Positions 3,301 to 59,862 of a stretch of DNA of 64,000 nt are shown one piece after another. This DNA is from an uncultured Clostridia bacterium (GTDB lineage: Bacteria; Bacillota; Clostridia; Oscillospirales; Ruminococcaceae). The DNA lies in assembly GCA_947627455.1 (NCBI GenBank), contig CANQWC010000005.1:1-64000 (forward strand). Reading direction: 5' to 3'. The position numbers and the translations under genes are program-made. How positions within the stretch are numbered: the stretch's first letter is position 1; every line of letters starts with the position of its first letter. Under the pieces are notes generated by a model that worked only from the letters and a program-made list of their open reading frames with translations, searched no databases and had not been told where the DNA came from.

Positions 3301-6300
3301 AGCCAAGCGTTTATATCACAGATATAAAAGAGTATGATTATGCAGACGAACTTGGTTCAAACGAGGGAATAGCCGCAATAACTGTTCCCGAGGGCGAAAC
3401 GCGCAACGGCAATGAAAATGTAAGACCCGTTATATTCTTTGTCGACGACGCGGGATATCTCAGATGCTTTTACAGCAACAGCAACTCAAAAACCGAGCCA
3501 AAAAACAGCTCAGGCCCGAGAAGCTCGGCGTCCTATGTTTACTTCAAGTGGGACTGCAACGACGTCAAGACGGATTCGCTTCAGGCCGCGCTCGGAACCT
3601 TCAATGCCGACCTTGAGGAAATATCGCCGAGCAGCCGCGTTTCGGCGGTTCGGTTCAGCTCAGAGAAGATCGGGGACGATGATCTCGACAAGCTTGTAAT
3701 GCTTGACTGGACGAAAGACCCCGCCGCGGCGACAAAAATGCTCAGCCTTGAATATGGCGAAGGCGAATCTACAGGTTTTGACAACTCGGTGCCGAGTCTT
3801 GAAAACGAGAATAACAGTCAATCGTCCATAAAGCAGTATAACTACGGCCTCACGGGCGGCACAAGCACATATCAGGGGCTTAAGGCGTTTAATGATATTC
3901 TTGTCGCGAAACAGTCGGACGGCACCTCGCGAATGGATCGCGACAACCCCGACCGCGATAACGGCAAGGGCAAATACGTTATTATCTTCACCGACGGCAA
4001 GGACACCAATGTCGAGGATTTGACAAGCACGGACGAAGACGAAAAGAAAGCCGCCCAAGCAAAGGTCGACGGGTCAAAAGAAATTGCCCAAACGCTTAAA
4101 AGCGACGGCTTCACGATTTTCTATGTTCTTTTGAAGAGCGGTTCATTCACGGTAATAGATGATGCGGAGAAGGCGTTTATCGCTTCGATAGCGGGTAACA
4201 CCGAAACAGACGATTATGCAGAGGACAAAAGTTTAAGCGACGTACAGAAATATGAAGCTCTTCAGGAACAGTATATCTTTGAGGCCACAGGCGGCGATAA
4301 CCTTACCGACATATTCCGAAATGATATCCTCGGCGAAATATCAAAGACCCTCAATGACTATACCGTTAAAGACTATATCGACCCGAGGTTTGATTTAATC
4401 GGTTATACGAAGGATGAGAACGAGCGCCATGTAGAGACGGTATTTCACCTTAACGAGGGCGGAAAAGTTGAATATATCGACGCCAAGAACGGCGAGACAA
4501 TCAACAATGTTAGCAGTTCTCCTCTCTCGATAGAGCTGTCGTCTAACAATGGAAACTCCGAAATCGCCTATCTTTACTATGACGGCGGGTACTACCTCAC
4601 TTGGACAAAGCAGGAAATCCCATACTGCACCGTCGGCGACAGCGAGCTTACGGTCTGGCGCTCTGAGTTTAAAATCGTCGCGAAGGAAGACTTCATCGGC
4701 GGCAACGCCATACTCACCAACGGCAACGAAGAAAAACAGAATTATGTATATAACCCAAGCGACGTGGCGAACGCAAGCTCGGGCAAGGACAAGGCAAATG
4801 ACATCAACTTGTCATCGGCCGAATATGTCTCAAAGGGCTTCCCGAGGACGGCGGCAAACGTCAGAAGACTGCCTCTTGAACCGACAGTAAGCAACAGCGA
4901 TATCTATCTCGGCGAGACCATTTCGCCCGAGGATATTATAACCGCGCTTATTAAGCAAAATCTTGCCGACGAGAAAAACAGCAGCCCGTATTTTGAATAT
5001 CTTCTCAGAACAGAGGACAACAAAACCAAGCTTGCTAAGCTGTTTGAGGGGCTTGAAGGCGACGGCGAAGAAACTCTCACTCTGCCCTATTCCTATGTGC
5101 CGCGTGTGAACGACCCTGACAGCTATGCAGGCGATGAATTGCATCAGAAAGATTATGTCGGAACAATCACCTATACTCTTAAGGCCGAGGAAGCTCTTGG
5201 CGACGGCGAAAAAATAGAAGATGACAGCAGTGTAATAACTCTTTATACAAAGGAAAGAAAATATACCTTAACCGTGGACTTTGAGCCGTTTAAGGTTGAG
5301 TCAAAATCTTCTGTAGTTGACGGCATTGAAACCGACAGAAACACCGCTAACGGTGCGCTTGTCACCGAGAAGGATGTAAAAAATGAGGCTGTATATCCTT
5401 GGGACAATAGCTTCAAACCTGCCGCGGGTGCGGTTCAGAGCGGGTTCAGCAAAGAAATTGAAAACACCCACACCGTCTACATGGTTCGCGGGCAGATTGT
5501 TTTGAGAGCGGCTCTCAGCGACGCCGATTATGACTATATTTGCAAGTATTATCCCGATACCGAGATTTACAGCGCTGACCTCGTAAGAACTTATGACGGC
5601 GAAGATACCACCGTCGGAACACTCACTGTCAAAACCCCTGCGGTTGCCGCAACGGCATTGACAGGCGAAAAATATCTCTATGCGGAGTTTAAGCCCGCAA
5701 GCGGCACGGGGCTTAAAGATTTGCTCCCGATAGGCGACTATTCGTTTGCCAACGCCAAGCCCAACGCCGATTTGCCGTTGGTATTTGAATCGCTCGACTC
5801 AATCAAGCTTGTTGAGGATTTGACAGACGACGCGCTTGCCAAGTTTAACGATTATGTTTATATTGATTCCTCGGGAAAAATGCAGAAAGCTTCTAAGGGA
5901 GACACCGATTACAGGGCTTCTTATACCTATGCGGCAGGCCTGTTTAATGACCCTGCGGGAGGCTTCAACAGTAGTTCTTATTACGGCCCGATCAAGCTCG
6001 GCACAGCGAGCACAGACGCGGGTAGGATTGACGACCTTATCGGCCTTGCCGAGATAAAGGGAACGCTCAAAACGGGCACCCTCACTATCACAAAGACGGT
6101 CGTAGACAACTCCTCAGACTTTGAGCCCGATGGCACTGAGGAATTCACCTTTAACGTCACATTCCTTAACGGCACTAAAGAACTTGCTACCGACGATTTT
6201 GATAATATCACCGTCAGCATTGGCGGCGCACCTGCGGAGCCTTTCAACGGCACAGTAACGCTTAAGGCAGGCGAAAACGCAACAATCTCGGGAATTCCCG

Positions 6301-9300
6301 TCGGCGTGACTTACACCGTTGAGGAGCAGCCTGTTGACAGCTTCACAACCGAATATGAATTCTCGGACAAGGACCAGACGATTTCAGATGGCGACGGCGA
6401 CACGGTCGAGGTCACGAACACCTATGAGCCTTCTGTATCCGCGACGCTCAGCGTTGAAAAAACTATCACGGGCGAATATCTGCCCAACCGCGAGACGTCG
6501 TTCAAGTTCAAGCTTGCGCCCGTCGATGAAAACGGCGACCCGATAACCGACGGCTCAACGCCGATGCCCGAAAGCGACACCATCAGCATTGGCTTTGAGG
6601 CAACTCCCGATGCCGCGACTTCAAAAACAAATTCTGACAGTTGGAATCTGACCTTCACCAAGGTGGGCACATATTACTATACTGTCACCGAGATTGTCCC
6701 GAGCGACAAAGAGGGATTCATATATGATGAAAAAGCGGTGCATACCGTTAAATTTGAGGTCACAGCGAATACCGCCGAAAATAAGTTGAATGTCACCGCA
6801 ACAGTCGATGACGGCAATCCCGTTGTCGGCGATGTCGAGGTGTCTTACACCAATACTTACAAGCCCGAAGAAATCGAAGTTTATTTCGATGGAACGAAAG
6901 AACTCACCGGGCGCGACTGGGCAGCAACCGACACGTTTGAATTTACAATCGAGGGCGATGATGTACCCCTGCCTACTCAGACAACTGTATATGCTGACAG
7001 CAACAAGCAAGACTTCACGTTCGGGGCTATCACCTTCACAAAACCAGATGAGTATACCTATACTATCAGGGAAACCAAAGGAAGCGACGATAAAATCGCC
7101 TATGACGACACGGAGTACACTGTCGTTGTTACCGTTACCGATAACGAGGGTACGCTTGAATATAGTGTCAATGTCAACGGCACAAGCGTAGACAGTGATG
7201 ATATCGTTGACGGTCATGTTGAGGGCTTCAACTTTGAGAACATCTATACCCCCGAAGTCGCCAAAATAGAAGTTTCGGGCACCAAGAGCTTCACTCTTGC
7301 GAACGGCGAAGCGCCCGAGTCTGACGAAGTATTCACATTCACGTTTGATGTGATTGAGACCGATTCGACTTGGACGGAAGAAAAGAACCCCGAGCAAAAC
7401 GAGAAAAAGACCGTTGAATTCTCAGGCAGCGATTTAAGCGGCACTCCGTCTCAAAAGCCGATAGTTGATCTTCTTAAAAAGACCTATGAGCTTAAAAATA
7501 TTCCCGAGATTCAGGACGGCGGCTCTGTAAAATATTATTACAAAGTCACCGAGAAGAACGACGGAACAGCTCATATAAGCTATGACAACACCGAGTATCA
7601 CATCACGGTGACGGTAAGCTACAGCAAGGAGAGCGGCATTTTATCCGCGTCGTATGATGTTACAGACGTAAATGGCAACAAGGCTGATATAGAGTTTTCA
7701 AACACCTATATCCCTGACGCTGTACCCGCGACGGCGAATATAACCGTGACAAAAGATGTCGACGGCGACGAGCTCCCAAGCGACGCAAACTTTACATTCA
7801 CATTTACAGTCACCGAGACCGATGAAAACCGCGAGCCCTTGGCGGGAGCTGCTCAGATACCGTCTATAACTGTCACAAACGAGGGCAGCGCGCTGTTCAC
7901 CCGCGAATTTACCGCGGGCGACATCGGCACACACTATTACACCATCGCCGAGGACCTTAACGACCCGCGCTTTGATTGCGATGAACCCGTCAAGTATGTC
8001 ACGGTAACGGTTGGCTATGACCCCGCGGCAAACACCGTCACGGCCGAGCCGAGCGTTTCTGAGGTGAAATTCACAAACACCTATACCGCCCCGAAGCCTC
8101 ATATCACGATTACTAAGAGCCAGACGGTTGTCAACGGACTTACGGGCACTCCTTTGACCGTAAAGGCAGGGGATATTGTCGAATATACCCTTACCGTTTC
8201 AAATGACGGCGATGTTGACGCGCCTGCGGTCAAGGTCATAGACACCGTTCCGACAGGGCTTGATATCATCAAGGAAAGCATCGTCGGCGGAACGCTCGAC
8301 GGGCAGAAGATAACATGGACGCTTACCGTTGGCGCGCATAATTCTGCGACTGTAAGCTTCAGAGTTACGGCGCCGCCCGTGACGGCGAGAACTACTTGGT
8401 CAAATATCGCATACGCCGACGGCACCCCGTCTGAGACCGTTGTGCTGATTGAAGAAAAGCCGAAGGTCGGCAATATTGAGATTCGCAAGACCCTCACGGG
8501 CAACGATTTCGACACTAACGACAGGTTCAGCTTCACGATTGAGGTTTACGGCGACGACGGAGTCACCCCGATTCTTGCGGAGACGTTTGAACTCGGACAG
8601 GGCGAGAGCAAAAAATATGAAAATCTTCCCGACGGCGCGAAGTTTACCGTTACTGAGACTGACACGCTCGGATATACCCCGTCGGTAAACGGAGTCAGCG
8701 GCAATTCCTATGAGGGCGTTGTCAAAAACGGCACGACGGTTTCGGTGAGATTTGAAAACAATCGCTCAAAGCCCGTGGTTCAGACAGGTTCGCTCATCGT
8801 GAGAAAGACCGTCGCGGGCCCCGCTGAGGCAATAATTCCCGAGACCTTCGGATTCACTTACAGCCTCGGTCTGCCATCAGATTTTACCGAGACAGAGTTT
8901 GACTACACCATATCCCACTTCGACTATATGGGCGTTGAGGTCATTGACGGGAGAGGCACGCTCGGCGCGTCGGGCACATTCAGCCTTAATAACGGTCAGA
9001 GAATCAAGATTTCGGGCCTGCCTGCGGGCACGACCTATAAGGTCGACGAGCTTCCGACGGTCGGCAGCTATATCGTCGACAGATATAATACAAGCGGCGT
9101 CATCACTCTTGATGAAAACGGCGCGGTCGCAGACGCCTACGCGGTGTTTGTCAACACGGTAAAAACGGGCCAGCTTACCGTCTCAAAGACGGCGGTCGGA
9201 AACCTTGCAATGTCTACCGACATGTTCGGGTTCATGGTCTCGCTCTATCACGACTCGGCTTTAAGCGAATCTGCGCAGGAGGTCGGCGGACAGTTCGGTG

Positions 9301-11600
9301 GAATGTACTTTGAAGCGGGCGTTGCTTATATCTCTCTTGCCGACGGCGAAAGCGTGACGGCGGTCGGCCTGCCCGTCGGGCTTTACTACAAGGTCGAGGA
9401 GATCGAAGCGAGCGGCTATGAAAGCGGCGTTGCGGGCGAGCAGATCGGCGTTATCACGATGGGCATGATCTCGGACACCGAGACATGCAGCGCGGCGTTC
9501 ATCAACCTTAAACAGAAAAACGTCAAAACGGGCGATCTCACCGTCTCGAAGATAGTCACGGGCGAGGGCGATACCTCATATCCGTTCCCGTTCACGCTTG
9601 AGCTTTACTATCACGACACGACGGGAAGCCCCGAGGTTTTGGCTGCCGATGTCAACCTCACGGGTAAAATCATCGGCGGCGAGCCGAGAGATGTCAGCGT
9701 TACAGGCGGCCGTGCGGCATTCAATCTCAGCCACGGCGAAAGCCTCCGCCTTGAGGGTCTGCCCGAGGATATTCACTATATCATCACCGAGACCGACCCG
9801 AACGGTCACACCGTGACGATTTCAAACACTGGCGCGTTTACGCCGACGTATTACGACCCGTTCTACGGAATAATGACTGCCGACGAAACCCAGTCAAATG
9901 CTGCCTCGGGCGATGTCAAGGGCGGCGAGCATGTTTCGGTTACGTTCTATAACCACATCGAACCCGAGCCCGAACCTGAGCCCGCGAGCACCTCGCTCAC
10001 CATCACAAAGACCTTTGACCAAAAGGGCTCGACCAAGGACAACGCTCTTACGTTCAGCTTCGACGTTGCGCTAATCAGCGCAGTCGACCCATCGGGCAGC
10101 CCGATAACCGACGCAAGCGGAAACTACCTTGCAAATGTAACCGTAAATAAGGGCGAGGAGGATGGCTACGGAACTGTCGAGTTAAGCTTTGACAGAGCGG
10201 GAACCTATACCTTCTCGATCAAGGAGCGCGCGGAGTATATCGGCGATGTGCCCGAAGGCGGCGAACTTTACACCGTTACCGATGAGAAGCTTGCGGTCGT
10301 CACTGTCACCGAGGTCAACGGAATTCTCACCGCGACGCCTATTGAGCCTATCGTGTTTGTAAACCGTTATGTTGCGCCAAAAGAACCGCCAACGCCGTCG
10401 AGCGCGGTAATAACCGTTCAGAAGCTTATTGAGGGCGATGATATCAGCGGCGAAAGCTTTGACTTTGATTTCACCGTCACCGAGGCAGACCAGAGCGGCG
10501 AAATAATTGACGAGCTTCATATCACAAACGAGGGCACTGATACATTCATCACCCGCGAATTCACCGAGGAGGACATCGGCAATACATACTACTACACCAT
10601 CACCGAGGTTGACGGCGGCATCAAGGGTATGAGTTATGCCGATGCGCAGACCGTCACGGTAAGCGTTACCTATGACGAGGCGGCCAACGCTGTTGTCGCG
10701 ACGGCAACACCCAACCCCGTTGTGTTCATCAACACCTATACACGCCCCGACCCGAGCCTCGCCGAGATAAGACTCACGAAGAAGGTCTCCGATTCGAGCG
10801 GCAAGGAATATGCCGAGGGAAGCTTCACTTTTGAGGTCAACCTCACAAACCGCCCCGAATATTCGGAAAACGGCTTCACAAACGGCAAAGCAACAGTTAC
10901 TGTTGACGGCGGTGCAACGGTTGTGCTGACAGTTCCGTTCGGCGCTGAGTATGAGATCACCGAGATAAATGTTCCCGACGGCTATACCGATTCGACCGAA
11001 AAGCTTAAAGGCGTTGCCGACGGCAGCACGGTCGAGCTGATCTACAATAACGTCAAGACCCCGAAAACGGGCAGCCTTACTCTTCGCAAGATTTTGGTCG
11101 TCGATGGCAGAATCTCGGAGGGTGGCAGAAAGTTCAGGTTTAAGATTGAGCTTTTGGGCTCTGACTTTACGGGCGATGCAAACGGTGTAAGCTTTGATAA
11201 CGGCGTCGCTTGGGTAGAACTCAGCGGCGGCGAGAGCGTCACAATGACGGGGCTTCCCGTCGGTGTAGACTATGTCATCACCGAAGACAGCGTCAGCGGC
11301 TATACGCTGCTCAGCGAAAGCAGCTCGGGCCTCAGCGGCACGATAACCGCCGACAGCGATGCGGTCGCCATCGCGGTGAACGCGACGTTCGGCTCGCGCA
11401 CGCCGATCAATCCTCCGCCGATGACCCCTGAACCCGACCCCGATGATCGAGTTGAGATCATTCCCTCGACCGAGGGCGGCAGCGGCGAAGGCGATGAAGT
11501 CCCCGACGAAAGCGAGCCCAACCCCGTAACGGGCGCACTCGGCAGCGGAATGTCCTTGCTCCTCGCAGCAGCGCTCGCGCTGGCGACTAAGCGGAGGTAA
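372..11600 (+). CDS. Giant vWA / LamG / Cna_B-type cell-wall adhesin (main part)
   Basis: Very long surface protein. Numbering from ATG 69, a von Willebrand A domain opens with the MIDAS motif DASGS at residue 291. Two concanavalin/LamG-like domains (about 457-690 and 709-945) are inserted before the vWA domain resumes with TYQGLKAF and VIIFTDGKD near residue 1302. About fourteen Ig-like pilin-type repeats follow from residue 2000 to 3780. They start with patterns such as LTITKTV, and many end with NTY; they resemble Cna_B or Spy0128 isopeptide-linker domains, with one DUF11-like unit near 8100. The C-terminus has NPVTG at residue 3818, a hydrophobic stretch and KRR, a sortase-type anchor. 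GTG 372 is only the first start codon after the TAG and has no ribosome site, so the natural start is 69. Likely a long adhesive stalk binding host or plant polymers; the ligand is unknown. Confidence 0.85.
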   Translation: MFVGFAVLAGNDIVSFATEDGKEVLKIDYGSVDKDKSLVHEVKINVFYMEEPQYGADFGSSGAGNDVCYIALDKNGNILEKSGSTSESALEDRFYIVDPDWVTTSIYGELSLNADDFTNEYGLVDVDEDGISDAAGVAKLYNTSAGLHTDKTVYATEARGDNIDGSRKFDVTLESWYGGNATADIGLILDASGSMAFSSSNMIPMRLSQESNSSNEQALTWLDHNTADDTYWGDPKIIQDRAEHKYGYYKLSYDDDTKTYKLTTNDGKGYYTGTGENGSAEYTFKANEYLPPDVVDVLLKQTDTDNSMLGYSGYSYYVYDRRASHSEFNPLGYWGGKSRKTEPYTETTDPPATEKLIGHYTFDDTLKNDKSSSGGEAKLINNVEKGTGATFDKDTTPSIKTEPEYVKGDDNTLDLAATAEKGGLMLDIDTPNKFTIAMRIKSSVSGQEKDVYEEIPLVYIGDPNGTNYIKVVRSSSDARNIKVYENGTLIINYGDSETAATTMKPFHDTDWINLCLLYDGSNLTIAEYDKNQSTSISKDTVQRSLSGFSTDNAVIIIGGDIDGRSEKEYSPMQLTEFCVFDKALSDNELQTVNTKSNIKTYSKMQEIGGLTAFYDFGDGAGDKLGNRASSSSGSLKFIKQAENGAFNTKEEIQGKTELEPIYADKALNLTQTAKNGGILLDAVPTNQNDFTISFKVKNDSDSPTQEAELVYMGPLNTNNGYYNIFRSQSSTSPTSGDPRHIRFSKDSNYTGTKASGSNAFSQGDWTTVTFTVKDGTVKAYVNGEAVETAGGSTATLGQLTESDFAIILGGLQDKYNGKDILIDELFVYDKALDESEVSQLYKSLQEPKVIAAAANVALDDSGNTIAYIDAALVANKGEEEKMRGWYYVNSTSDWVNNYDNPKVGTAKVLQALSTDEVIKNEISINDLPEDIQAKLEKGWEYDYSKCNGGFIYTGKNDFTLTDGSEHYYYNAEENDGKPSVYITDIKEYDYADELGSNEGIAAITVPEGETRNGNENVRPVIFFVDDAGYLRCFYSNSNSKTEPKNSSGPRSSASYVYFKWDCNDVKTDSLQAALGTFNADLEEISPSSRVSAVRFSSEKIGDDDLDKLVMLDWTKDPAAATKMLSLEYGEGESTGFDNSVPSLENENNSQSSIKQYNYGLTGGTSTYQGLKAFNDILVAKQSDGTSRMDRDNPDRDNGKGKYVIIFTDGKDTNVEDLTSTDEDEKKAAQAKVDGSKEIAQTLKSDGFTIFYVLLKSGSFTVIDDAEKAFIASIAGNTETDDYAEDKSLSDVQKYEALQEQYIFEATGGDNLTDIFRNDILGEISKTLNDYTVKDYIDPRFDLIGYTKDENERHVETVFHLNEGGKVEYIDAKNGETINNVSSSPLSIELSSNNGNSEIAYLYYDGGYYLTWTKQEIPYCTVGDSELTVWRSEFKIVAKEDFIGGNAILTNGNEEKQNYVYNPSDVANASSGKDKANDINLSSAEYVSKGFPRTAANVRRLPLEPTVSNSDIYLGETISPEDIITALIKQNLADEKNSSPYFEYLLRTEDNKTKLAKLFEGLEGDGEETLTLPYSYVPRVNDPDSYAGDELHQKDYVGTITYTLKAEEALGDGEKIEDDSSVITLYTKERKYTLTVDFEPFKVESKSSVVDGIETDRNTANGALVTEKDVKNEAVYPWDNSFKPAAGAVQSGFSKEIENTHTVYMVRGQIVLRAALSDADYDYICKYYPDTEIYSADLVRTYDGEDTTVGTLTVKTPAVAATALTGEKYLYAEFKPASGTGLKDLLPIGDYSFANAKPNADLPLVFESLDSIKLVEDLTDDALAKFNDYVYIDSSGKMQKASKGDTDYRASYTYAAGLFNDPAGGFNSSSYYGPIKLGTASTDAGRIDDLIGLAEIKGTLKTGTLTITKTVVDNSSDFEPDGTEEFTFNVTFLNGTKELATDDFDNITVSIGGAPAEPFNGTVTLKAGENATISGIPVGVTYTVEEQPVDSFTTEYEFSDKDQTISDGDGDTVEVTNTYEPSVSATLSVEKTITGEYLPNRETSFKFKLAPVDENGDPITDGSTPMPESDTISIGFEATPDAATSKTNSDSWNLTFTKVGTYYYTVTEIVPSDKEGFIYDEKAVHTVKFEVTANTAENKLNVTATVDDGNPVVGDVEVSYTNTYKPEEIEVYFDGTKELTGRDWAATDTFEFTIEGDDVPLPTQTTVYADSNKQDFTFGAITFTKPDEYTYTIRETKGSDDKIAYDDTEYTVVVTVTDNEGTLEYSVNVNGTSVDSDDIVDGHVEGFNFENIYTPEVAKIEVSGTKSFTLANGEAPESDEVFTFTFDVIETDSTWTEEKNPEQNEKKTVEFSGSDLSGTPSQKPIVDLLKKTYELKNIPEIQDGGSVKYYYKVTEKNDGTAHISYDNTEYHITVTVSYSKESGILSASYDVTDVNGNKADIEFSNTYIPDAVPATANITVTKDVDGDELPSDANFTFTFTVTETDENREPLAGAAQIPSITVTNEGSALFTREFTAGDIGTHYYTIAEDLNDPRFDCDEPVKYVTVTVGYDPAANTVTAEPSVSEVKFTNTYTAPKPHITITKSQTVVNGLTGTPLTVKAGDIVEYTLTVSNDGDVDAPAVKVIDTVPTGLDIIKESIVGGTLDGQKITWTLTVGAHNSATVSFRVTAPPVTARTTWSNIAYADGTPSETVVLIEEKPKVGNIEIRKTLTGNDFDTNDRFSFTIEVYGDDGVTPILAETFELGQGESKKYENLPDGAKFTVTETDTLGYTPSVNGVSGNSYEGVVKNGTTVSVRFENNRSKPVVQTGSLIVRKTVAGPAEAIIPETFGFTYSLGLPSDFTETEFDYTISHFDYMGVEVIDGRGTLGASGTFSLNNGQRIKISGLPAGTTYKVDELPTVGSYIVDRYNTSGVITLDENGAVADAYAVFVNTVKTGQLTVSKTAVGNLAMSTDMFGFMVSLYHDSALSESAQEVGGQFGGMYFEAGVAYISLADGESVTAVGLPVGLYYKVEEIEASGYESGVAGEQIGVITMGMISDTETCSAAFINLKQKNVKTGDLTVSKIVTGEGDTSYPFPFTLELYYHDTTGSPEVLAADVNLTGKIIGGEPRDVSVTGGRAAFNLSHGESLRLEGLPEDIHYIITETDPNGHTVTISNTGAFTPTYYDPFYGIMTADETQSNAASGDVKGGEHVSVTFYNHIEPEPEPEPASTSLTITKTFDQKGSTKDNALTFSFDVALISAVDPSGSPITDASGNYLANVTVNKGEEDGYGTVELSFDRAGTYTFSIKERAEYIGDVPEGGELYTVTDEKLAVVTVTEVNGILTATPIEPIVFVNRYVAPKEPPTPSSAVITVQKLIEGDDISGESFDFDFTVTEADQSGEIIDELHITNEGTDTFITREFTEEDIGNTYYYTITEVDGGIKGMSYADAQTVTVSVTYDEAANAVVATATPNPVVFINTYTRPDPSLAEIRLTKKVSDSSGKEYAEGSFTFEVNLTNRPEYSENGFTNGKATVTVDGGATVVLTVPFGAEYEITEINVPDGYTDSTEKLKGVADGSTVELIYNNVKTPKTGSLTLRKILVVDGRISEGGRKFRFKIELLGSDFTGDANGVSFDNGVAWVELSGGESVTMTGLPVGVDYVITEDSVSGYTLLSESSSGLSGTITADSDAVAIAVNATFGSRTPINPPPMTPEPDPDDRVEIIPSTEGGSGEGDEVPDESEPNPVTGALGSGMSLLLAAALALATKRR

Positions 11601-17878: not shown

Positions 17879-18682
17879 ATGAAGAAAACATTTAAGATTG
17901 CCGTTTCGCTTTTGATGGCGACGGCTCTGATCCTTTCCTGCCAGCTCGCCGCTTTTGCCGACGACGAGCCCGTGGTCTGCTACTTTGTTGACTGCGGCGA
18001 CTATCTTGTCGACACCGTTTCGGAGGGCGACACCATGGGCACGCTCAACTCCGTGACCGATCAGTTCTTCGGCGCCGACCCCGCCACGGGTATGCAGTGG
18101 GGCGTTGTCGATGAATCTCTCGACGCCGCTTCGGCCGAGCCCTACGGCGATTCAAGGGTAGTCACAAAGTGGACATGGGCCTATGAATACAACGACGCGG
18201 GCGCCGATGTTCCGAAGGAGCAGTCGAACCGCTACTGCCATAATATGATGGAAAACGGCCTCGACCGCGTTATCACCTATAAATTCGAGCTTCCCGAGGA
18301 CGGCGAGTACACCGTTGAGGTCGGGTTTGCCTCGCCTTGGGGGAACTCTGTTCCCGCCGCCCTTTACGTCAACGGCGAGCTTGCCGCCGACGGAATTATG
18401 GCGACCTCTGACGACTGCGGCGTTGCGACAGCGACAGCTTCACCCGTCGACGGCTTTATAACTGTCGAGGGCAAGACCGACATGCCGACGCTGAACATGG
18501 CCTATATCATCATCTCAAAGGTTCCCGCTCCCGAGCCCGAGCCCGAAGCGGCTGAAACCGCCGAAGCCGTCGAGACAACCGCTCCCGAGGTGGAAAATTC
18601 CGCACCCGAGACAGGCCTCACCCTTGCGGTGATTCCCGCAATCGTCGCCGCTGCGGCCGCCGCCCTCTCAAAGAGAAGATAA
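17879..18682 (+). CDS. Wall-anchored surface protein, possible carbohydrate-binding domain
   Basis: 267 residues with a signal peptide (Lys-rich start, hydrophobic core, cleavage after AAFA near residue 28). The core contains YKFELPEDGEYTVEVGFAS and LYVNGELAADG, a pattern seen in beta-sandwich sugar-binding or malectin-like modules, although the family is not certain. A Pro/Glu/Ala-rich stalk precedes the sorting signal APETGL, a hydrophobic helix and SKRR. AGGAGG precedes ATG 17879. It shares the regulon box, so it is likely co-expressed with the glycanases and may tether substrate at the cell surface. Confidence 0.75.
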   Translation: MKKTFKIAVSLLMATALILSCQLAAFADDEPVVCYFVDCGDYLVDTVSEGDTMGTLNSVTDQFFGADPATGMQWGVVDESLDAASAEPYGDSRVVTKWTWAYEYNDAGADVPKEQSNRYCHNMMENGLDRVITYKFELPEDGEYTVEVGFASPWGNSVPAALYVNGELAADGIMATSDDCGVATATASPVDGFITVEGKTDMPTLNMAYIIISKVPAPEPEPEAAETAEAVETTAPEVENSAPETGLTLAVIPAIVAAAAAALSKRR

Positions 18683-51498: not shown

Positions 51499-52410
51499 TT
51501 GACGGTTAAGACCGAACGGAGGGAGAGCCGCGCCCGCATCGGCTTTTTTGCGGGAATTTTCGGGATACTGACTAATCTTGCGGCGTTCGCGGTGAAGATA
51601 ACCGTCGGGCTTATCTCGGGGAGCGTTACCGTTGCGGCGGACGCTTTTAACAGCCTCACCGACGCGGGGAGCTCGATTCTCACGATGATAGGCTTTCGGC
51701 TTTCGGCAAAGCCCGCCGACAGCGACCACCCTTACGGCCACGCGAGATATGAAGAGGTCACGGCGCTGTTTATCGCGATGATGATGCTGTTTGTCGGGCT
51801 TTTGTTCGCAAAAAGCTCGATAGAAAAAATAATCAGGCCCGAGGAGCTTTCAATAGGAATACCGACCTATATCGCGCTCTGCGCCGCGATTATACTCAAA
51901 ATAATTCAGGCGGTCGTGAACTTTGCGCTCTCGAAAAAGATAAATTCTCAGGCGCTCAGGGCTGCGGCCCTTGACTCGCGGAACGACGTTTTGATCACCT
52001 CGACGGTTCTTCTGAGCGTTGTGATTATGGGCTTTTTCAACGTGAATATAGACGGCTTCGCGGGGCTTGCGGTATCGCTCTTTATAATCTGCTCGTCGGC
52101 AGTGACCGTTAAAAACGCGGTGAGCCCGATTCTTGGCGCGCCGCCGCCGCAAAGCCTTGTTGACGCCATCACCGAAATAGTGAAATCAAGACCCGAGGTT
52201 CTGGGGTATCACGACCTTGCGGTTCATAACTACGGCCCCGGGGCGAACTTCGCCTCGATTCACTGCGAGGTTGATTCGCGAGACGATATCGTGTCGATTC
52301 ACAACGTCATCGACGGCATTGAAAAGGAAGCTTCGGCCAAGTTGGGCGTGGTTCTTACGATACATATGGACCCCGTCGACAGGGGAGGGCAAAATGAAGA
52401 GGAAAGTTAA
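51499..52410 (+). CDS. Cation diffusion facilitator, probable Mn/Fe exporter
   Basis: 303 residues with six membrane helices and a C-terminal cytoplasmic ferredoxin-like domain. Metal-site residues on helices 2 and 5 read DAFNSLTDAGSS and DSRNDVL; DxxxD on helix 5 replaces the HxxxD of zinc exporters, as in Mn-type members. HPYGHARYEE follows helix 2. The TTG start at 51499 is used because AAAGGGAG precedes it and no other start fits. The C-terminal HxD-like motifs (TIHMDP) are present. It overlaps the next gene by 17 bases. Confidence 0.9.
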   Translation: MTVKTERRESRARIGFFAGIFGILTNLAAFAVKITVGLISGSVTVAADAFNSLTDAGSSILTMIGFRLSAKPADSDHPYGHARYEEVTALFIAMMMLFVGLLFAKSSIEKIIRPEELSIGIPTYIALCAAIILKIIQAVVNFALSKKINSQALRAAALDSRNDVLITSTVLLSVVIMGFFNVNIDGFAGLAVSLFIICSSAVTVKNAVSPILGAPPPQSLVDAITEIVKSRPEVLGYHDLAVHNYGPGANFASIHCEVDSRDDIVSIHNVIDGIEKEASAKLGVVLTIHMDPVDRGGQNEEES

Positions 52411-53536
52411 GCTGAGGCGGTCGGACATTGTTCTGATGTCGCTGTTCGGCGTTCTGCTGATAATAAACCTTGCTTCGTGGCTTTCGACGGGATTTTCGGA
52501 TTTTTACGTCGGGAAGATATACCCGATCTACAGCGCTCTGCCGATTTTTTTGGCGGGGCTGGCGCCCTTTTCCGTCGGCGAGATAATGATAATAATATTC
52601 GCACTCGGCGCGATAATAGGCATTCCGACGGTTATAATCTTCGCGATAAAAAATCGCAGGAACACCGAAAAATCGGTCAGGGCGCTCACGGCGGCGATAA
52701 GGGTTCTGCTCTGGATTCTTCTTTATATCTTCACGGCCGAGACCCTCGGCTGCTTTGTGATGTATCACTGCACCAAATTTTCGGACAGATATTTTGAACC
52801 CGTGGAACACAATGAGGAGCTGCTGCTCGACACGCTGTCGGCGTTCTCGGACAGGATAGCGGAGCTCAGCGGGAAATTTGAACGGGATCGGGACGGGTAC
52901 ATAATTCTTGATGAAGACCCCGCGGACGATTGCAGGGCGGCTATGAGCGCCCTCAGCGGGGATTATTCTCAGCTTTCGGGTAGATACCCTCGGCCGAAAA
53001 AAATCATGAACTCGTTCTTTATGTCGCAGGAGGGGATAATCGGGCTTTATATACCCTTTGCGTTTGAGGCGACATATAACAAGGATATTCAGCCGATAGC
53101 CGCGCCCGCGACCATCTGCCATGAGCTTGCGCACCTCAAGGGGATTATTCAGGAGGACGAGGCGAGCTTTGTCGCGATTGTGGCTTGCCTTAAATACGGC
53201 TCGGACGAGCTTAAGTATTCGGCGTGCATCGACGCGTTTTACTACCTCTATAAAAACGCATCGGAACTTATCGGAACTGATTATGAACAGCAGCTTTACG
53301 ACGCCGTGGCGGTAGTTCCCGATGAGGTTTGGGACAAGGACCTCGGCTCGTTCACCGAGGATTATTGGGAGAAAAACAGCCACAAGGAAATCATTCCGAC
53401 CGAGACAGTCGCCGCAATCTCGGAAGCCCTCACCGACGCAAACCTCACCCTGAACGGCGTCAGCGACGGAATCAACGCCTATAACCGCGTGGTAGAGCTA
53501 TTGATGGACTATTACGGCAACGGCGGGGTTGTTTAA
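52394..53536 (+). CDS. DUF3810-type membrane protein with HExxH motif
   Basis: 380 residues. Three membrane helices lie in about 12-130 (FGVLLIINLASWLSTGF, the PIFLAGLAPFSVGEIMIIIF region and ALTAAIRVLLWILLYIFTAE). The C-terminal part has TICHELAHLKG near residue 241, a zincin-like HExxH motif, with Glu downstream in QEDEASFVA. This matches DUF3810 proteins, suspected membrane metalloproteases. ATG 52394 is inside the CDF gene end, with GGGAGGG ahead, so the two are translationally coupled. Confidence 0.85.
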   Translation: MKRKVKLRRSDIVLMSLFGVLLIINLASWLSTGFSDFYVGKIYPIYSALPIFLAGLAPFSVGEIMIIIFALGAIIGIPTVIIFAIKNRRNTEKSVRALTAAIRVLLWILLYIFTAETLGCFVMYHCTKFSDRYFEPVEHNEELLLDTLSAFSDRIAELSGKFERDRDGYIILDEDPADDCRAAMSALSGDYSQLSGRYPRPKKIMNSFFMSQEGIIGLYIPFAFEATYNKDIQPIAAPATICHELAHLKGIIQEDEASFVAIVACLKYGSDELKYSACIDAFYYLYKNASELIGTDYEQQLYDAVAVVPDEVWDKDLGSFTEDYWEKNSHKEIIPTETVAAISEALTDANLTLNGVSDGINAYNRVVELLMDYYGNGGVV

Positions 53537-53605
53537 AATCTTGCACAAAAATCGCGAAGAAAATTTGTGTATTAGGCTAAATTTTTTCTTTTCATTATAC
53601 GCCCC

Positions 53606-53634
53606 TTGATTTTTTGAACGACAAAGAGTATAAT
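53606..53634 (+). promoter_or_regulatory. Promoter of first small wall protein
   Basis: TTGATT (53606-53611), 17 bp, TATAAT (53629-53634). Confidence 0.8.
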
Positions 53635-53670
53635 ATAGTTGAATTTGAGCGACAGCCCGAATTCTGAATT

Positions 53671-53758
53671 TTAAGGAGGAATACTTATGAAGAAAATTTT
53701 GGCAATTGCCATGGCTCTTGTTTTGGCTATGGCGCTCTCTGTCAGCGTTTTCGCTGAT
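53671..53758 (+). repeat. 5' shared block of surface genes (pairs with 54560-54647)
   Basis: 88 bp covering ribosome site, start and signal peptide. It matches 54560-54647 with one difference (T at 53715, G at 54604). Confidence 0.85.
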
Positions 53759-54409
53759 GATGTTCTTTACAGCCATGACTTCACCGATAATCATGCTGAT
53801 GCATGGTGGGAAGAAGCAAGCGTAAACGGCCTTTCTAACGATGCCGACCTTATCGCTGCTCTTAAGACCCCCGGCGCAAAGCTTGTTATCGAGGCTGACG
53901 AGGCTGTTAATGTTGAAGCTACCGACTGGGGCTGGCAGTACGGCATCGTTTCCACTGCTACTTCGCCTTGGACTCAGGTTATGATGCACTACAACTTCGA
54001 CGGCACCAAGAACCCCGAAAAAGGTAATGAGGGCGATGTCGGAGCTGAGAGCGTTGTTGTTGAGAACGGCCATGCTTTCATCACCATCGACGCTGCTACT
54101 CTTCTTGCTGCTTGCGATTCTCTCGGCCTTGACCTTTCTGCTTACAACTGGGTCAACGGCGCGGGCAACAGCGGCTCTGCCAACACCTACGGCCTGAAGG
54201 TTATTGTTCCTTCTGCTGAGGCTGAGCCCGAGGCAACCGAGACCGAGACTACTGAGCCCGAGACCACCGAGACTGCTCCTGAGACCACTGAGACCACCAC
54301 TGAGACTACTACCGAAGAGACCGCTTCTGCTCCTTCGACAGGCCTTGCTCTCGCGGTTGTTCCTGCTGTAGTTGCTCTTGCTGCTGCTGTCGTCTCGAAG
54401 AAGAGATAA
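53687..54409 (+). CDS. Small wall-anchored surface protein 1
   Basis: 240 residues. Signal peptide MKKILAIAMALVLAMALSVS ends at VFA (residue 23). The unique core (24-175) shows WWEEASVNG and DWGWQYGIVST, rich in aromatics and possibly a carbohydrate-binding beta-sandwich. A Thr/Glu-Pro stalk (PEATETETTEPETTET) follows, then APSTG, a hydrophobic helix and SKKR. Its signal and stalk/anchor DNA are virtually identical to those of the next gene while the cores are unrelated. A taaGGAGGA ribosome site precedes ATG. Function is unknown. Confidence 0.8.
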   Translation: MKKILAIAMALVLAMALSVSVFADDVLYSHDFTDNHADAWWEEASVNGLSNDADLIAALKTPGAKLVIEADEAVNVEATDWGWQYGIVSTATSPWTQVMMHYNFDGTKNPEKGNEGDVGAESVVVENGHAFITIDAATLLAACDSLGLDLSAYNWVNGAGNSGSANTYGLKVIVPSAEAEPEATETETTEPETTETAPETTETTTETTTEETASAPSTGLALAVVPAVVALAAAVVSKKR

Positions 54410-54467
54410 TCTCAACATTTTGTTGTTAATCACCTCTTAGGTAAAGCGCTCCGCAAAGGGGCGCTTT
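54221..54467 (+). repeat. 3' shared block of surface genes (pairs with 55032-55278)
   Basis: 247 bp, identical as far as read, covering the stalk, sorting signal, stop and terminator. It repeats at 55032-55278, an offset of 811 bp. Confidence 0.88.
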
Positions 54468-54468
54468 T
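54443..54468 (+). terminator. Terminator after surface gene 1
   Basis: AAAGCGCTCC and GGGGCGCTTT form a 10-bp stem (one G-U) with T run. Confidence 0.88.
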
Positions 54469-54496
54469 CCGTTTATGATTTTTTTGTCAATGGCTA

Positions 54497-54524
54497 TTGA
54501 CAAAATCACAATAATGTGTATAAT
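54497..54524 (+). promoter_or_regulatory. Promoter of second small wall protein
   Basis: TTGACA (54497-54502), 16 bp, TATAAT (54519-54524). Confidence 0.82.
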
Positions 54525-54575
54525 TGAATTAAAGGTGCAGATAATATCTCTGCTCTTAATTAAGGAGGAATACTT

Positions 54576-55220
54576 ATGAAGAAAATTTTGGCAATTGCCA
54601 TGGCGCTTGTTTTGGCTATGGCGCTCTCTGTCAGCGTTTTCGCTGATTGGGCTGTCGGTCCTCTTTCAATCGACAACTTCGGTTCAAGCGGATGGGACAG
54701 CACCTATGACGCGGCTTCTCACGTCATCACCCCTGACCACGACTGGGTCGGCAAGGGCTGGTGGATCGCAGGCGACAGCAGCCTCTATGCAGGTTATGAC
54801 GCCCTTAAGATCGCTTTCCCGAACGGCGCTGAGACAGGCGGACAGGTAGTTGTTGAGTTTGCTGACGGCGCTGAGAGCGTTACCGTTCCCTTTGCCGCAG
54901 GCGATGCTGAGGTCGTTATCCCGATCGACCCCGCAAGCTCTATCAACCAGATTTATGTTCAGATCGGTGCAGACCCCAAGCCTCTCACCATCGGCGAAGT
55001 AACCATGCAGGTTGAGGGTACCGGCGCTGCTGCTGAGCCCGAGGCAACCGAGACCGAGACTACTGAGCCCGAGACCACCGAGACTGCTCCTGAGACCACT
55101 GAGACCACCACTGAGACTACTACCGAAGAGACCGCTTCTGCTCCTTCGACAGGCCTTGCTCTCGCGGTTGTTCCTGCTGTAGTTGCTCTTGCTGCTGCTG
55201 TCGTCTCGAAGAAGAGATAA
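54576..55220 (+). CDS. Small wall-anchored surface protein 2
   Basis: 214 residues. The signal peptide and the C-terminal 64 residues (stalk, APSTGLALAVV, SKKR) match gene 1 exactly. The core (24-150) differs: GWDSTYDAASHVITPDHDW, then YDALKIAFPNGAETGGQVVV and VTVPFAAGDAEVVIPI, a beta-rich pattern suggestive of a sugar-binding or Ig-like fold. It is the swapped-core partner of the upstream gene, so gene conversion at both ends or recent cassette exchange is likely. Own promoter and terminator. Ligand unknown. Confidence 0.8.
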   Translation: MKKILAIAMALVLAMALSVSVFADWAVGPLSIDNFGSSGWDSTYDAASHVITPDHDWVGKGWWIAGDSSLYAGYDALKIAFPNGAETGGQVVVEFADGAESVTVPFAAGDAEVVIPIDPASSINQIYVQIGADPKPLTIGEVTMQVEGTGAAAEPEATETETTEPETTETAPETTETTTETTTEETASAPSTGLALAVVPAVVALAAAVVSKKR

Positions 55221-55253
55221 TCTCAACATTTTGTTGTTAATCACCTCTTAGGT

Positions 55254-55279
55254 AAAGCGCTCCGCAAAGGGGCGCTTTG
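55254..55279 (+). terminator. Terminator after surface gene 2
   Basis: Same hairpin as after gene 1, within the duplicated 247-bp block. Confidence 0.85.
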
Positions 55280-55315
55280 CTGTTTTCGCCATTTTTAATT
55301 TTTTCTCATCACCTC

Positions 55316-55343
55316 TTGACAAATTCGCAAGAGAGTGTATAAT
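55316..55343 (+). promoter_or_regulatory. Promoter of third small wall protein
   Basis: TTGACA (55316-55321), 16 bp, TATAAT (55338-55343). Confidence 0.82.
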
Positions 55344-55395
55344 TGTAGTGAGACTGCGGATAATATTTCCGCGCTTAGATTAAGGAGGAATTATT

Positions 55396-56184
55396 ATGAA
55401 GAAAATTTTGGCAATCGTTGTCGCTCTTGCTATGGTAATGGCTCTCGCGATTCCTGCGTTTGCGGCTGATGAGTACACCGTTGCTCTTCTTTATGCCGAT
55501 GCCGACTGGTATCCGAACCTCATGTCGAATAACGACGATCCCGCTTCTGAGACCTGCCCGAAGATCACCATCACGGGCGACGGAACCTATTCGATTGAGA
55601 CCACTGCCGCCGCAGGCGCATCAGGCGCCATGGTTCTTTGCATCGATATCAGAGATGTTCTTGTCGATCACCCCGATGTCACGGCAACACTTGATTCTAT
55701 TGAGGTCGACGGCGAGCCCTTTGAGTTCGACGCTTCCAAGATCCTCTACGGCAATATCGAGACCGATAACAACCACTACAGAATCGAAATTTACAACGAG
55801 TACGGCAACACCAAGAGCGCCGCTCCGTTCCTTCCCGCTTCGCTCAAGGTCGGCACTACCTTCAAGGTAACCTTCACCGTTTCGGGCCTTGGCGCCGCTG
55901 CCGATGAAGGCACCGCGGGCGACGGCACTGCCGCTGACAACAACACTGTTGATCCTGAAGCTCCTGCCGAGGGCACTGATCCTGAGCCCACCGAGGCTGC
56001 TCCCACCGAGACCACTACTCCTGATACCGATGTAATGAACGTCGCCGAGTCGGGCCCTGCCGATGAGCCCACCGAGTCGGGTCCTGCTGAGGATGAGCCT
56101 TCCGCTCCTTCTACGGGCCTTGCCCTTGCGGTCGTTCCCGCTGTCATAGCTATGGCTGCTGCGGTTGTTTCAAAGAAGCACTAA
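55396..56184 (+). CDS. Small wall-anchored surface protein 3
   Basis: 262 residues. Signal peptide MKKILAIVVALAMVMALAIP (cut after AFA) is related to but not identical with genes 1 and 2. The core (25-165) has ITITGDGTYSIETTAAAGAS and LYGNIETDNNHYRIEIYNEYG, a beta-sandwich-like pattern. A Pro/Glu/Thr/Asp stalk with two ESGPADEP-like units precedes APSTGLALAVVPAVIAMAA and SKKH. It was not part of the recent conversion, as its ends are more divergent at DNA level. Role unknown; likely co-displayed with genes 1 and 2. Confidence 0.8.
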   Translation: MKKILAIVVALAMVMALAIPAFAADEYTVALLYADADWYPNLMSNNDDPASETCPKITITGDGTYSIETTAAAGASGAMVLCIDIRDVLVDHPDVTATLDSIEVDGEPFEFDASKILYGNIETDNNHYRIEIYNEYGNTKSAAPFLPASLKVGTTFKVTFTVSGLGAAADEGTAGDGTAADNNTVDPEAPAEGTDPEPTEAAPTETTTPDTDVMNVAESGPADEPTESGPAEDEPSAPSTGLALAVVPAVIAMAAAVVSKKH

Positions 56185-56190
56185 GATTTC

Positions 56191-56223
56191 TGAAAAAAGG
56201 GCCCTGCGGGGCTCTTTTTTTGT
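56191..56223 (+). terminator. Terminator after surface gene 3
   Basis: AAAAAGGGCCC and GGGGCTCTTTTT form a stem with long T run. Confidence 0.88.
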
Positions 56224-56270
56224 GACATAAAAAAGCGGCCGAGGAAAACCTCGACCGCAAATTTTATATA

Positions 56271-57269
56271 TTACTTCATAGCCTCTTCAACCGCGACAGC
56301 GCAGGCGACGGAGGCGCCGACCATCGGGTTGTTGCCCATGCCGATGAGGCCCATCATCTCAACGTGAGCGGGGACAGAGGACGAGCCCGCGAACTGAGCG
56401 TCGGAATGCATACGGCCCATGGTGTCGGTCATGCCGTAGCTGGAAGGACCAGCTGCCATGTTGTCGGGGTGGAGGGTTCTGCCCGTGCCGCCGCCAGAGG
56501 CGACCGAGAAGTACTTCACGCCGTTTTCGTTGCACCATTTCTTGTAGGTGCCCGCGACGGGGTGCTGGAACCTTGTCGGGTTGGTGGAGTTGCCCGTGAT
56601 CGAGACGCCGACGTTCTCAAGCTTCATGATCGCAACGCCCTCGGGAACGTTGTCGGCGCCGTAGCACTTGACATCGGCTCTCGGGCCGTTGGAGTAGGCC
56701 TTTTCATATACGACCTCGACCTGCTCGGTGAAGGGGTCGAACTTGGTCTCAACATAGGTGAAGCCGTTGATTCTCGAGATGATGAAAGCGGCGTCCTTGC
56801 CGAGGCCGTTGAGGATAACGCGCAGGGGCTTGGTTCTTACCTTGTTGGCGTTGAGGGCGATCTTGATTGCGCCCTCGGCAGCGGCAAAGCTTTCGTGGCC
56901 CGCGAGGAAGCAGAAGCACTCGGTGCTCTCGGAAAGGAGCATTGATGCGAGGTTTCCGTGGCCGAGGCCGACCTTTCTGTTCTCGGCGACAGAACCCGGG
57001 ATACAGAAGCTCTGGAGGCCCTCACCGATGGCGACAGCGGCATCGGCAGCCTTTTTGCAGCCCTTCTTTATCGCGATGGCGCAGCCGACGGTATAGGCCC
57101 AGACGGCGTTCTCAAAGCAGATGGGCTGGGTCTCGCGGACTATCTTATCGCAGTCGATACCCTTTGCAAGGGTGATCTCTTTGCATTCCTCAACAGAGGA
57201 GATACCGTACTGAGCGAGAACCGCGTTGATCTTGTCGATTCTTCTCTCATAGTTTTCAAATAAAGCCAT
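56271..57269 (-). CDS. GGGtGRT protein
   Basis: 332 residues of the GGGtGRT family, named for the SGGGTGRTLHPDN motif near residue 254. Other conserved stretches are GPSSYGMTDTMGRMHSDAQF and the C-terminal GMGNNPMVGASVA. The function is unknown; the family is almost always next to a NifU-like scaffold protein, as here, so a metal or Fe-S related role is inferred. It is the downstream gene of the pair, 20 bases after it, with GAGGAGGA ahead of ATG 57269. Confidence 0.92.
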   Translation of the reverse strand: MALFENYERRIDKINAVLAQYGISSVEECKEITLAKGIDCDKIVRETQPICFENAVWAYTVGCAIAIKKGCKKAADAAVAIGEGLQSFCIPGSVAENRKVGLGHGNLASMLLSESTECFCFLAGHESFAAAEGAIKIALNANKVRTKPLRVILNGLGKDAAFIISRINGFTYVETKFDPFTEQVEVVYEKAYSNGPRADVKCYGADNVPEGVAIMKLENVGVSITGNSTNPTRFQHPVAGTYKKWCNENGVKYFSVASGGGTGRTLHPDNMAAGPSSYGMTDTMGRMHSDAQFAGSSSVPAHVEMMGLIGMGNNPMVGASVACAVAVEEAMK

Positions 57270-57982: not shown

Positions 57983-58173
57983 TTTTTTATTGACTCCTTT
58001 CAAAATATTGAGAGTTGCATAATTCAACGCTCTCATTATACTACATTTCCGCAGACTTGACAAGAGATTTTCCCGATTTTTTCATGCCCGAAAATAAAAT
58101 TTTTTTCGCGATGCAATATTTTGCCCCTCTTGTGCGTATTACAGTTGAAGGACCTTTCAAGGAGGAATTTAAA

Positions 58174-59037
58174 ATGAAAAAAATTATCGCGATTTTTATT
58201 TGTGCCGCGATTTTTGCGATGCTCAGCCTGCCGATATCTGCCGACGACGGCGAGAATGTCATCACCGACACCGAGCTCGTCTCTGCGGAATATCGCCCCG
58301 AATCAGACGACTACAGCGTTATAATCGCCTGGGGCTACGGCTTCAAAGACTCAGACGGAGAGATCGATTGGTATTATGTCTTTGCGCCAACCATTCTCAC
58401 TGCGGATATCTTCACTTCCGACGGCTCGCAAGCGGCAGATGAGCTTTTGGCCGCCGTCAAGGAGGGAAAAACCATTCCCGCAAGAACCGTGGTTGAGCTC
58501 GTCCCCGAATCGGAAGACGGATTATTTATTCTGGAATCCTATCCGCCGCAGCTCGTCGGTTATAGCGAGGTGAAATTCCTCGGCGGGCCGCTGAAGGATT
58601 ACAGCCTCACCGACGAAGCTGTCAGGAAGGAGATCGACGGGATAAATTCGATGAGGAGCTTTGATATTTGGTTTCCCTATCCCGACGGAAGCTATCGCGA
58701 AGCCGAGCTTGTGGTTGACGGCAGGACCTATCGGCTTGATCGCGACACCATGGTTTTGTTCGAGATCGACCCCGACGCCGAGATAATCACGGCAGAGAGC
58801 GACCTTGCCCCGTGGGGCAGCGTTGAATATGTGAGGATAGATGATAACACCCTCGCGGTGAGGCCGAAGGACAGCGACGGCGGTTGGTCGGTGTTTTCGG
58901 CAGATGAGAACGATAAGCCCGCCGAGCCTGACGAGCAGAACCCCAAGACAGGCCGCAGCGGCCCGCTCACGGGGATAGCCCTCGCGGGTGCGCTCGCTTG
59001 GTGCGCAGCAGTGGCTTTTTCAAGAAAAGACCGTTAA
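58174..59037 (+). CDS. Wall-anchored surface protein 4
   Basis: 287 residues. Signal peptide MKKIIAIFICAAIFAMLSLP ends near SAD (about 24). The soluble part has no family I recognise; it is rich in beta-forming stretches (YSVIIAWGYGFKDSDG, EAELVVDGRTYRLDRDTMVL) and contains no repeats. The C-terminus NPKTGRSGPLTGIALAGAL with SRKDR is a sortase-type anchor, with N rather than A before PxTG, like the giant adhesin. AAGGAGGA precedes ATG 58174; in-frame starts upstream are poor. Role unknown. Confidence 0.78.
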   Translation: MKKIIAIFICAAIFAMLSLPISADDGENVITDTELVSAEYRPESDDYSVIIAWGYGFKDSDGEIDWYYVFAPTILTADIFTSDGSQAADELLAAVKEGKTIPARTVVELVPESEDGLFILESYPPQLVGYSEVKFLGGPLKDYSLTDEAVRKEIDGINSMRSFDIWFPYPDGSYREAELVVDGRTYRLDRDTMVLFEIDPDAEIITAESDLAPWGSVEYVRIDDNTLAVRPKDSDGGWSVFSADENDKPAEPDEQNPKTGRSGPLTGIALAGALAWCAAVAFSRKDR

Positions 59038-59147
59038 GAAGTGTTGATATATAAAGCGCTCGTCATAATGGCGGGCGTTTTGCATCGCGAAAAATTAGAG
59101 AAGTAATAAGACATATATATCACAATAATTGTATCAAATTTTATAAA

Positions 59148-59190: not shown

Positions 59191-59235
59191 CATTTTGTAT
59201 AATAAATGTAAGAAAATATGTCAGGAGGAGATTTG

Positions 59236-59862
59236 ATGGCGATTTTTGGATATATCAGGGTCAGCACTAAGGAGCAGAACGAGGATCGGCAGCTTATCGC
59301 GATGAATGAGGCGAACGTTCCGCCCGAAAATGTTTATATGGATAAACAGTCGGGCAAGGACTTCAATCGCCCTAATTACAAGCGCTTGCTGAGAAAACTG
59401 AGGCGAGATGACGTGCTATACATCAAGAGCATCGACCGCCTTGGGCGAAACTATGAGGAGATTCAGCAGCAGTGGCGGGTCATCACGAAAGAAAAGGGCG
59501 TCGATATTTGCGTGATCGACATGCCGCTGCTCGACACGCGCCGCGGGAAAGACCTTGTGGGCACGTTTTTGAGCGATATTGTGCTGCAGGTGCTCAGTTT
59601 CGTCGCGGAAAATGAGCGCACCAACATCAGGCAAAGGCAAGCGGAGGGCATAGCGGCGGCAAAGGCGAGGGGAGTTCGATTCGGCAGGCCGCCCGAGCCG
59701 CTGCCCAAAAATTTTTATGCGAATTATCAGAAGTGGCGGGCGGGCAAAATCTCGGGGACTGCGGCGGCAAGAGCATGCAAAATGCCCCTGTCGACGTTCA
59801 GATATCGGGCGGAGAGCGTCGATAAATCGGCGGGGTGTGATAGGCATAATTTTGCAAAATAG
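59236..59862 (+). CDS. Serine recombinase (resolvase/invertase family)
   Basis: A 208-residue small serine recombinase. The catalytic domain (1-140) starts MAIFGYIRVSTKEQNEDRQL with the nucleophilic Ser at residue 10, then RLLRKLRRDDVLYIKSIDRL and the GRNYEE segment. The C-terminal HTH (about 165-200, SGTAAARACKMPLSTFRYRA) should bind recombination sites. ATG 59236 follows AGGAGGAG; the frame is also open from an ATG 6 codons upstream inside the ribosome site. It lies between surface-protein genes, so it may act on nearby DNA, but no crossover site is recognised. May instead be a remnant of a mobile element. Confidence 0.9.
   Translation: MAIFGYIRVSTKEQNEDRQLIAMNEANVPPENVYMDKQSGKDFNRPNYKRLLRKLRRDDVLYIKSIDRLGRNYEEIQQQWRVITKEKGVDICVIDMPLLDTRRGKDLVGTFLSDIVLQVLSFVAENERTNIRQRQAEGIAAAKARGVRFGRPPEPLPKNFYANYQKWRAGKISGTAAARACKMPLSTFRYRAESVDKSAGCDRHNFAK

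Follow-up and report, generated by a model that had tools for sequence, protein, structure and literature searches.

A tandem array of three genes for predicted surface proteins was identified in the window (the whole 64,000-nucleotide stretch of DNA analyzed here), and two of these genes have nearly identical ends around unrelated middles. Recombination through the shared ends probably homogenizes the tails of such genes within an array, with the cores persisting as conserved modules. Under this explanation, an array would be a tandem set of separately transcribed surface proteins, each with a Sec-type signal, a core of ~120–150 residues, an acidic T/E/P stalk, and a PxTG sorting signal. Array members would recombine, by gene conversion or unequal crossing over, via their stalk and anchor DNA, keeping tails alike within the array and leaving each signal-plus-core as a conserved module. 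In the window, the signal block would have been copied as well, and recently, so that gene 2 has the signal and tail of gene 1 around a different core. Recombination had been proposed in the first-pass annotation and is the best cause for the shared ends; the recent date also given there is plausible.

The three genes are arranged head to tail on the + strand (Table 1); the third was overlooked in the first-pass annotation. All have an MKK-type signal peptide (identified by eye), a core, an acidic T/E/P-rich stalk, an APSTG sorting signal, and a basic end. The 5' block shared by genes 1 and 2 is 88 bp long with a single mismatch, at 53716, and the 3' block is 247 bp long with zero mismatches and takes in the stalk, the anchor, the stop codon, and the greater part of the downstream hairpin region. 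Exact matches between the two gene regions reached 247 nt, compared to 14 nt or less in 20 shuffles, and both blocks are far beyond chance. Identity of gene 3 to genes 1 and 2 is 68%–69% for signal DNA and 77% for anchor DNA. The middles of genes 1 and 2 are unrelated by BLASTP (E value of 0.21) and by profile comparison (probability of 0.9%); the longest exact match between the two cores is 12 nt (7 to 11 in 20 shuffles). All three cores in the window are mutually unrelated by sequence. The two shared blocks and the dissimilar middles reported in the first-pass annotation were both borne out. No simple repeats that could support phase variation were found at 53500–56300, where the only repeats are those of the stalk, with periods of 9–21.

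Table 1. Features of the array and its surroundings, in window coordinates.
Feature	Position	Strand	Description
DUF3810 gene	52394..53536	+	marks array site A in the genus
Promoter-like site, gene 1	53606..53634	+	10/12 consensus places; consensus match only
5' shared block, copy 1	53671..53758	+	ribosome-binding site and signal-peptide codons
Gene 1	53687..54409	+	240 aa: signal peptide, core 1, TE-rich stalk, APSTG sorting signal
Unshared core 1	53759..54220	+	belongs to a 39-member superfamily spread over 21 genomes; sister genomes have related cores
3' shared block, copy 1	54221..54467	+	stalk, anchor, stop, downstream hairpin region
Promoter-like site, gene 2	54497..54524	+	12/12 consensus places; upstream sequence most similar to that of gene 3
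5' shared block, copy 2	54560..54647	+	88 bp
Gene 2	54576..55220	+	214 aa: ends as in gene 1, core unrelated
Unshared core 2	54648..55031	+	its family has one further member in G019 and one in G022, each at site B
3' shared block, copy 2	55032..55278	+	247 bp
Promoter-like site, gene 3	55316..55343	+	12/12 consensus places
Gene 3	55396..56184	+	262 aa: layout as genes 1 and 2, ends diverged, third core family

Matches to gene 1 were found in all 31 genus genomes searched, often several in tandem. The set compared consists of 97 PxTG-ending genes in 43 loci, some of them single genes, from 26 of the 31 genomes; loci were picked among the gene 1 matches listed, which are not the total. Two further genomes (G001 and G003) have only PA[DE]TG endings and were missed by the P.TG filter, two (G002 and G030) had no such genes in the stretches read, and G028 was not included. 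The window proteins at 17879 and 58015 were excluded from the counts, and locus L041 was rejected as just a low-complexity match. The set has one genome per species, from which the direction and number of events are not readable. A DUF3810 gene occurs in 29 of the 31 genomes, and in 23 of the 29 DUF3810 loci read it has PxTG genes next to it, no more than a few kb away; site A is therefore a standing array site. Sites B, C, and D were defined by common flanking genes. A GGGtGRT gene (56271–57269) adjoins the array in the window and is 91%–100% identical in sister genomes. It is present in 17 of the 31 genomes (E <= 1e-20, two partial) and was not found in the 11-genome sister clade.

Cores were grouped by single linkage (E <= 1e-4 over at least 60 residues), which placed the 97 genes in 14 families, 13 of them present in at least two genomes. 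The family of core 3 has five members. Among 148 family genomes drawn, gene 2 had matches in only G000 and G019 (E <= 1e-6).

In the window's clade (61 genes), tails go by array and signals go by core. Median anchor DNA identity is 89.3% for genes of one array whose core families differ (n = 46), 77.3% for genes at separate loci in a genome (n = 72), and 74.7% for genes of one core subfamily in different genomes (n = 105). Medians of signal DNA for these three classes are 59.7%, 58.3%, and 69.4%, respectively. Genes were also shuffled among the loci of their own genome, which controls for codon usage, using the 10 sister genomes with at least two loci (41 pairs; the window genome has one locus and was excluded). 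Anchor likeness was 89.6 vs 83.6 in the shuffles and was reached in 0 of 5,000, and signal likeness was 58.3 vs 58.1 and was reached in 2,060 of 5,000. Quick trees, built without a shuffled control, gave 21 changes for array vs 40 for core subfamily using anchors, and 36 vs 27 using signals. Gapped scoring left the order of results unchanged (0 of 2,000 for both stalk and anchor), with a small within-array excess also for signals, upstream regions, and 3' regions (13, 7, and 20 of 2,000). The contrast is weak in the sister clade, whose 11 genomes have very similar tails: anchor identity is 85.3% within arrays (n = 27), and comparisons between genomes gave 82.7% across families (n = 311) and 88.0% inside a subfamily (n = 150). 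An anchor nearest-neighbor count across both clades was even, with 36 array neighbors, 37 of the same core family in another genome, and three ties.

Loci with PA[DE]TG endings were examined afterwards and contain 13 genes, 12 of them new; cores are related in one of the 13 within-locus pairs, and the signal value of L061 7791 was disregarded because its start is misplaced. Their anchors are 90.7% identical within loci (n = 13 pairs) vs 57.3% between loci (n = 65). Since 11 of the 12 new genes match known core families, the same cores occur on a different sorting motif. Sister species, searched as a check, have these ends around further cores and also carry the same cores with different ends. 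The first-pass annotation had described constant export and anchoring modules around unrelated cores, which holds, and had attributed them to cassette exchange, which is not supported as the usual pattern. Mostly it is the tails that converge, because the common pattern in the clade is homogenized 3' tails with signal and core inherited together.

The pair in the window is unusual in this respect. Pairs from one array that differ in core family number 73 (27 and 46 in the two clades), and genes 1 and 2 are the only such pair with signals at least 95% alike. Compared to gene 1, gene 2 scores 0.97 for the signal and 1.0 for the anchor, and its upstream region scores 0.42 to gene 3 and 0.02 to gene 1. 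Gene 2 is a mosaic with a gene 3-like promoter region, the signal and tail of gene 1, and a core found at a different site in two sister species.

The cores look conserved. In all eight core pairs examined, dN is below dS, and between G019 and G022 core 2 has a dN of 0.04 and a dS of 0.68. Core identity is higher than DUF3810 identity in 18 of 226 pairs from the same subfamily. In 110 of 199 finite pairs, core dS is lower than DUF3810 dS, and in 23 it is less than half as large. The GGGtGRT gene is codon biased and has a dS of 0.51–0.84 (36 pairs, nine genomes). Beside this control, core dS in eight pairs was 0.27–1.61, clearly lower in one pair (0.27 vs 0.70), slightly lower in two (0.40 vs 0.51 and 0.74 vs 0.83), and equal or higher in five, including two window pairs in which core dS is above the control (1.61 vs 0.65 and 1.21 vs 0.60). 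Transfer of cores between species is possible but not supported by these values, because the codon-biased control has similarly low dS. Core deletion, suggested in the first-pass annotation, was not seen in a scan of the loci then in the set for short PxTG frames, which gave only one chance-like frame and a separate coreless gene conserved across the genus. The coreless protein (L013 1345–1581; G000:C1:43268–43504) is 79 aa in length and consists of a signal, a short acidic linker, and an NPTTG sorting signal. It has full-length matches in 30 of the 31 genus genomes, G002 being the exception, and its gene is downstream of a galE-like gene in all four loci read.

An alternative for at least gene 2 is that another core replaced that of a gene-1-like copy by a double crossover in the shared ends. 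Such core swapping is a live rival for the window pair, and we consider it possible but the less probable account. The other two members of the core 2 family are at site B rather than site A. The window genome keeps one flank of site B (proC, GH3, and the following genes, with proC and GH3 named from sequence), with a permease-like gene occupying the position that arrays have elsewhere; none of the listed ORFs of at least 120 aa is an array-type frame, and the second flank did not turn up in the 17 kb read. Core 2 may therefore have changed site and received local ends, although one genome does not distinguish core from ends as the part that moved. Also in favor are the local appearance of the non-core parts of gene 2, the presence of families 0, 2, 7, and 8 at two or more of the defined sites, and the pairing of a given core with different tails, such as in G019 and G022, where core DNA is 86% identical and anchor DNA is 65% identical. 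However, core exchange has formally the same outcome as converting the ends of an immigrant gene, signals mostly stay with their cores, and the site B family of core 2 has only three members. Recent core transfer is unsupported because core dS is mostly not below that of the GGGtGRT control and is higher in the window pairs.

The remaining alternatives are far less probable. Collapsed or mis-joined repeats would be a concern in a draft assembly of 40 contigs, and 247 bp exceeds common short reads, but the two copies of the 5' block differ by one base, both frames are open, and imperfect end sharing recurs in many other assemblies; we consider an artefact very unlikely. Whole-gene duplication followed by fast divergence of one core is more improbable still. 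Tandem duplicates of array genes do exist elsewhere, at L064 6244–7868 (G025) and L072 7425–9021 (G020), and the copies agree in length, have identical signal DNA, and have cores whose ends, as printed, are the same. In the window, however, each core has its own relatives in sister species, 54% identical for core 2 (G019 and G022) and 52% identical for core 1 (G021), which means that the two cores already differed when the ends became identical. Site-specific recombination by a nearby serine recombinase (59218–59862), which places a resolvase domain ~3 kb from the array, is equally hard to credit. The shared tracts are direct homologous blocks that end at module borders. Inverted pairs numbered 28 (25 listed); the pairs that touch the array are 70%–88% complementary, and the sole perfect one is elsewhere, around 58102–59094. 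This perfect 15-bp inverted repeat (58102–58116 and 59080–59094) flanks another PxTG-type gene (about 58174–59037), right beside the recombinase gene, and the exact 15-mer occurs at only these two places in the 2-Mb genome. The flanked gene could be an invertible, phase-variable surface gene.

Genes 1–3 each end with a PxTG motif, a hydrophobic stretch, and a basic tail, as in sortase-anchored proteins. No Pfam family was above cut-off for these three proteins. The genome has three sortase matches above the Pfam cut-off, which are closest to class B and score 113.7–137.3 bits with the class B model, below its equivalog cut-off of 153.75. Genes 1 and 2 score 14.9 and 15.2 bits with the NCBIfam model for NPXTG-anchored proteins (NF033846), below its cut-off of 23.5, and gene 3 was not listed. 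The first motif residue is A in all three genes and S in the sister clade. The PxTG signal of the array proteins is probably used by one of the three class-B-like sortases. A second stalk/anchor type, ending in NPxTG, is present on four contigs of the window's own genome (L005, L006, L007, and L013), with 74%–82% DNA identity to L013 over 113–169 columns; ends are thus shared between unlinked loci too. Other anchored-type proteins in the window include a 3742-residue surface protein (372–11600) that ends in NPVTG and has streptococcal-pilin isopeptide domains, and a protein at 17879–18682 (APETG), with frames in G020 and G023 that end alike (by eye).

The first-pass annotation described the cores as binding domains. 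Two of the 39 members of the core 1 superfamily pass the CBM65 Pfam cut-off of 25 bits (26.4 and 28.6 bits), and their subfamily matches that of core 1 by profile (97.3%), whereas core 1 itself has no CBM65 match at this cut-off. Glycan binding is therefore an indirect but reasonable guess. The core 1 profile had no match among solved structures, where cores 2 and 3 and the other cores had only chance-level matches, and a PHROGs search gave no match. AlphaFold models from single sequences were poor (mean pLDDT of 59.1 for core 2 and 48.6 for core 1). Foldseek found nothing at E <= 0.001 for the core 2 model; several of its weak matches (E of 0.03 and up) are carbohydrate-binding modules, from which nothing firm is drawn. 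The CBM65s described are parts of endoglucanases (PMC4954948).

The closest known pattern appears to be that of the Helicobacter pylori babA, babB, and babC genes, which have near-identical N- and C-terminal parts and a divergent middle conserved per gene, with gene conversion in the 5' and 3' regions (PMC4552749). Shared ends and unrelated but conserved middles occur in both systems. The bab genes, however, encode outer-membrane proteins at few loci with CT-repeat phase variation, whereas the window genes are probably wall-anchored, belong to tandem arrays found at several sites, and have no simple repeat in the array region. Clostridioides difficile SrtB is a class B sortase that handles PXTG-type sorting signals (PMC4155245). 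Its motif is (S/P)PXTG, from which APSTG departs at the first place and the sister clade's S does not; the accessible part of that source describes no shared-end arrays among SrtB substrates. A literature search (titles and the starts of abstracts, mostly without subscription papers) found no sortase-anchored arrays with shared ends and no NPXTG family in ruminococci.

The pattern in the window is not a local oddity, as relatives carry many arrays in which tails are alike within the array and middles are distinct and conserved. A more far-reaching reading, which we regard as rather unlikely, is that cores of at least 14 families travel between several chromosomal arrays and acquire the local stalk and anchor by recombination via the repetitive stalk, with the coreless protein carrying the ends alone; a core landing in an array would then be displayed on that array's anchor. 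The arrays behave as if one anchoring module served many outward-facing domains. If recombination does homogenize the tails, concerted evolution would act on the anchoring part in many species of one genus, with the outward-facing cores remaining distinct. The arrays would then supply naturally occurring cores and tails with which to study surface assembly and reshuffling in such bacteria, and would tie recombination to ligand preference in a way that can be tested.
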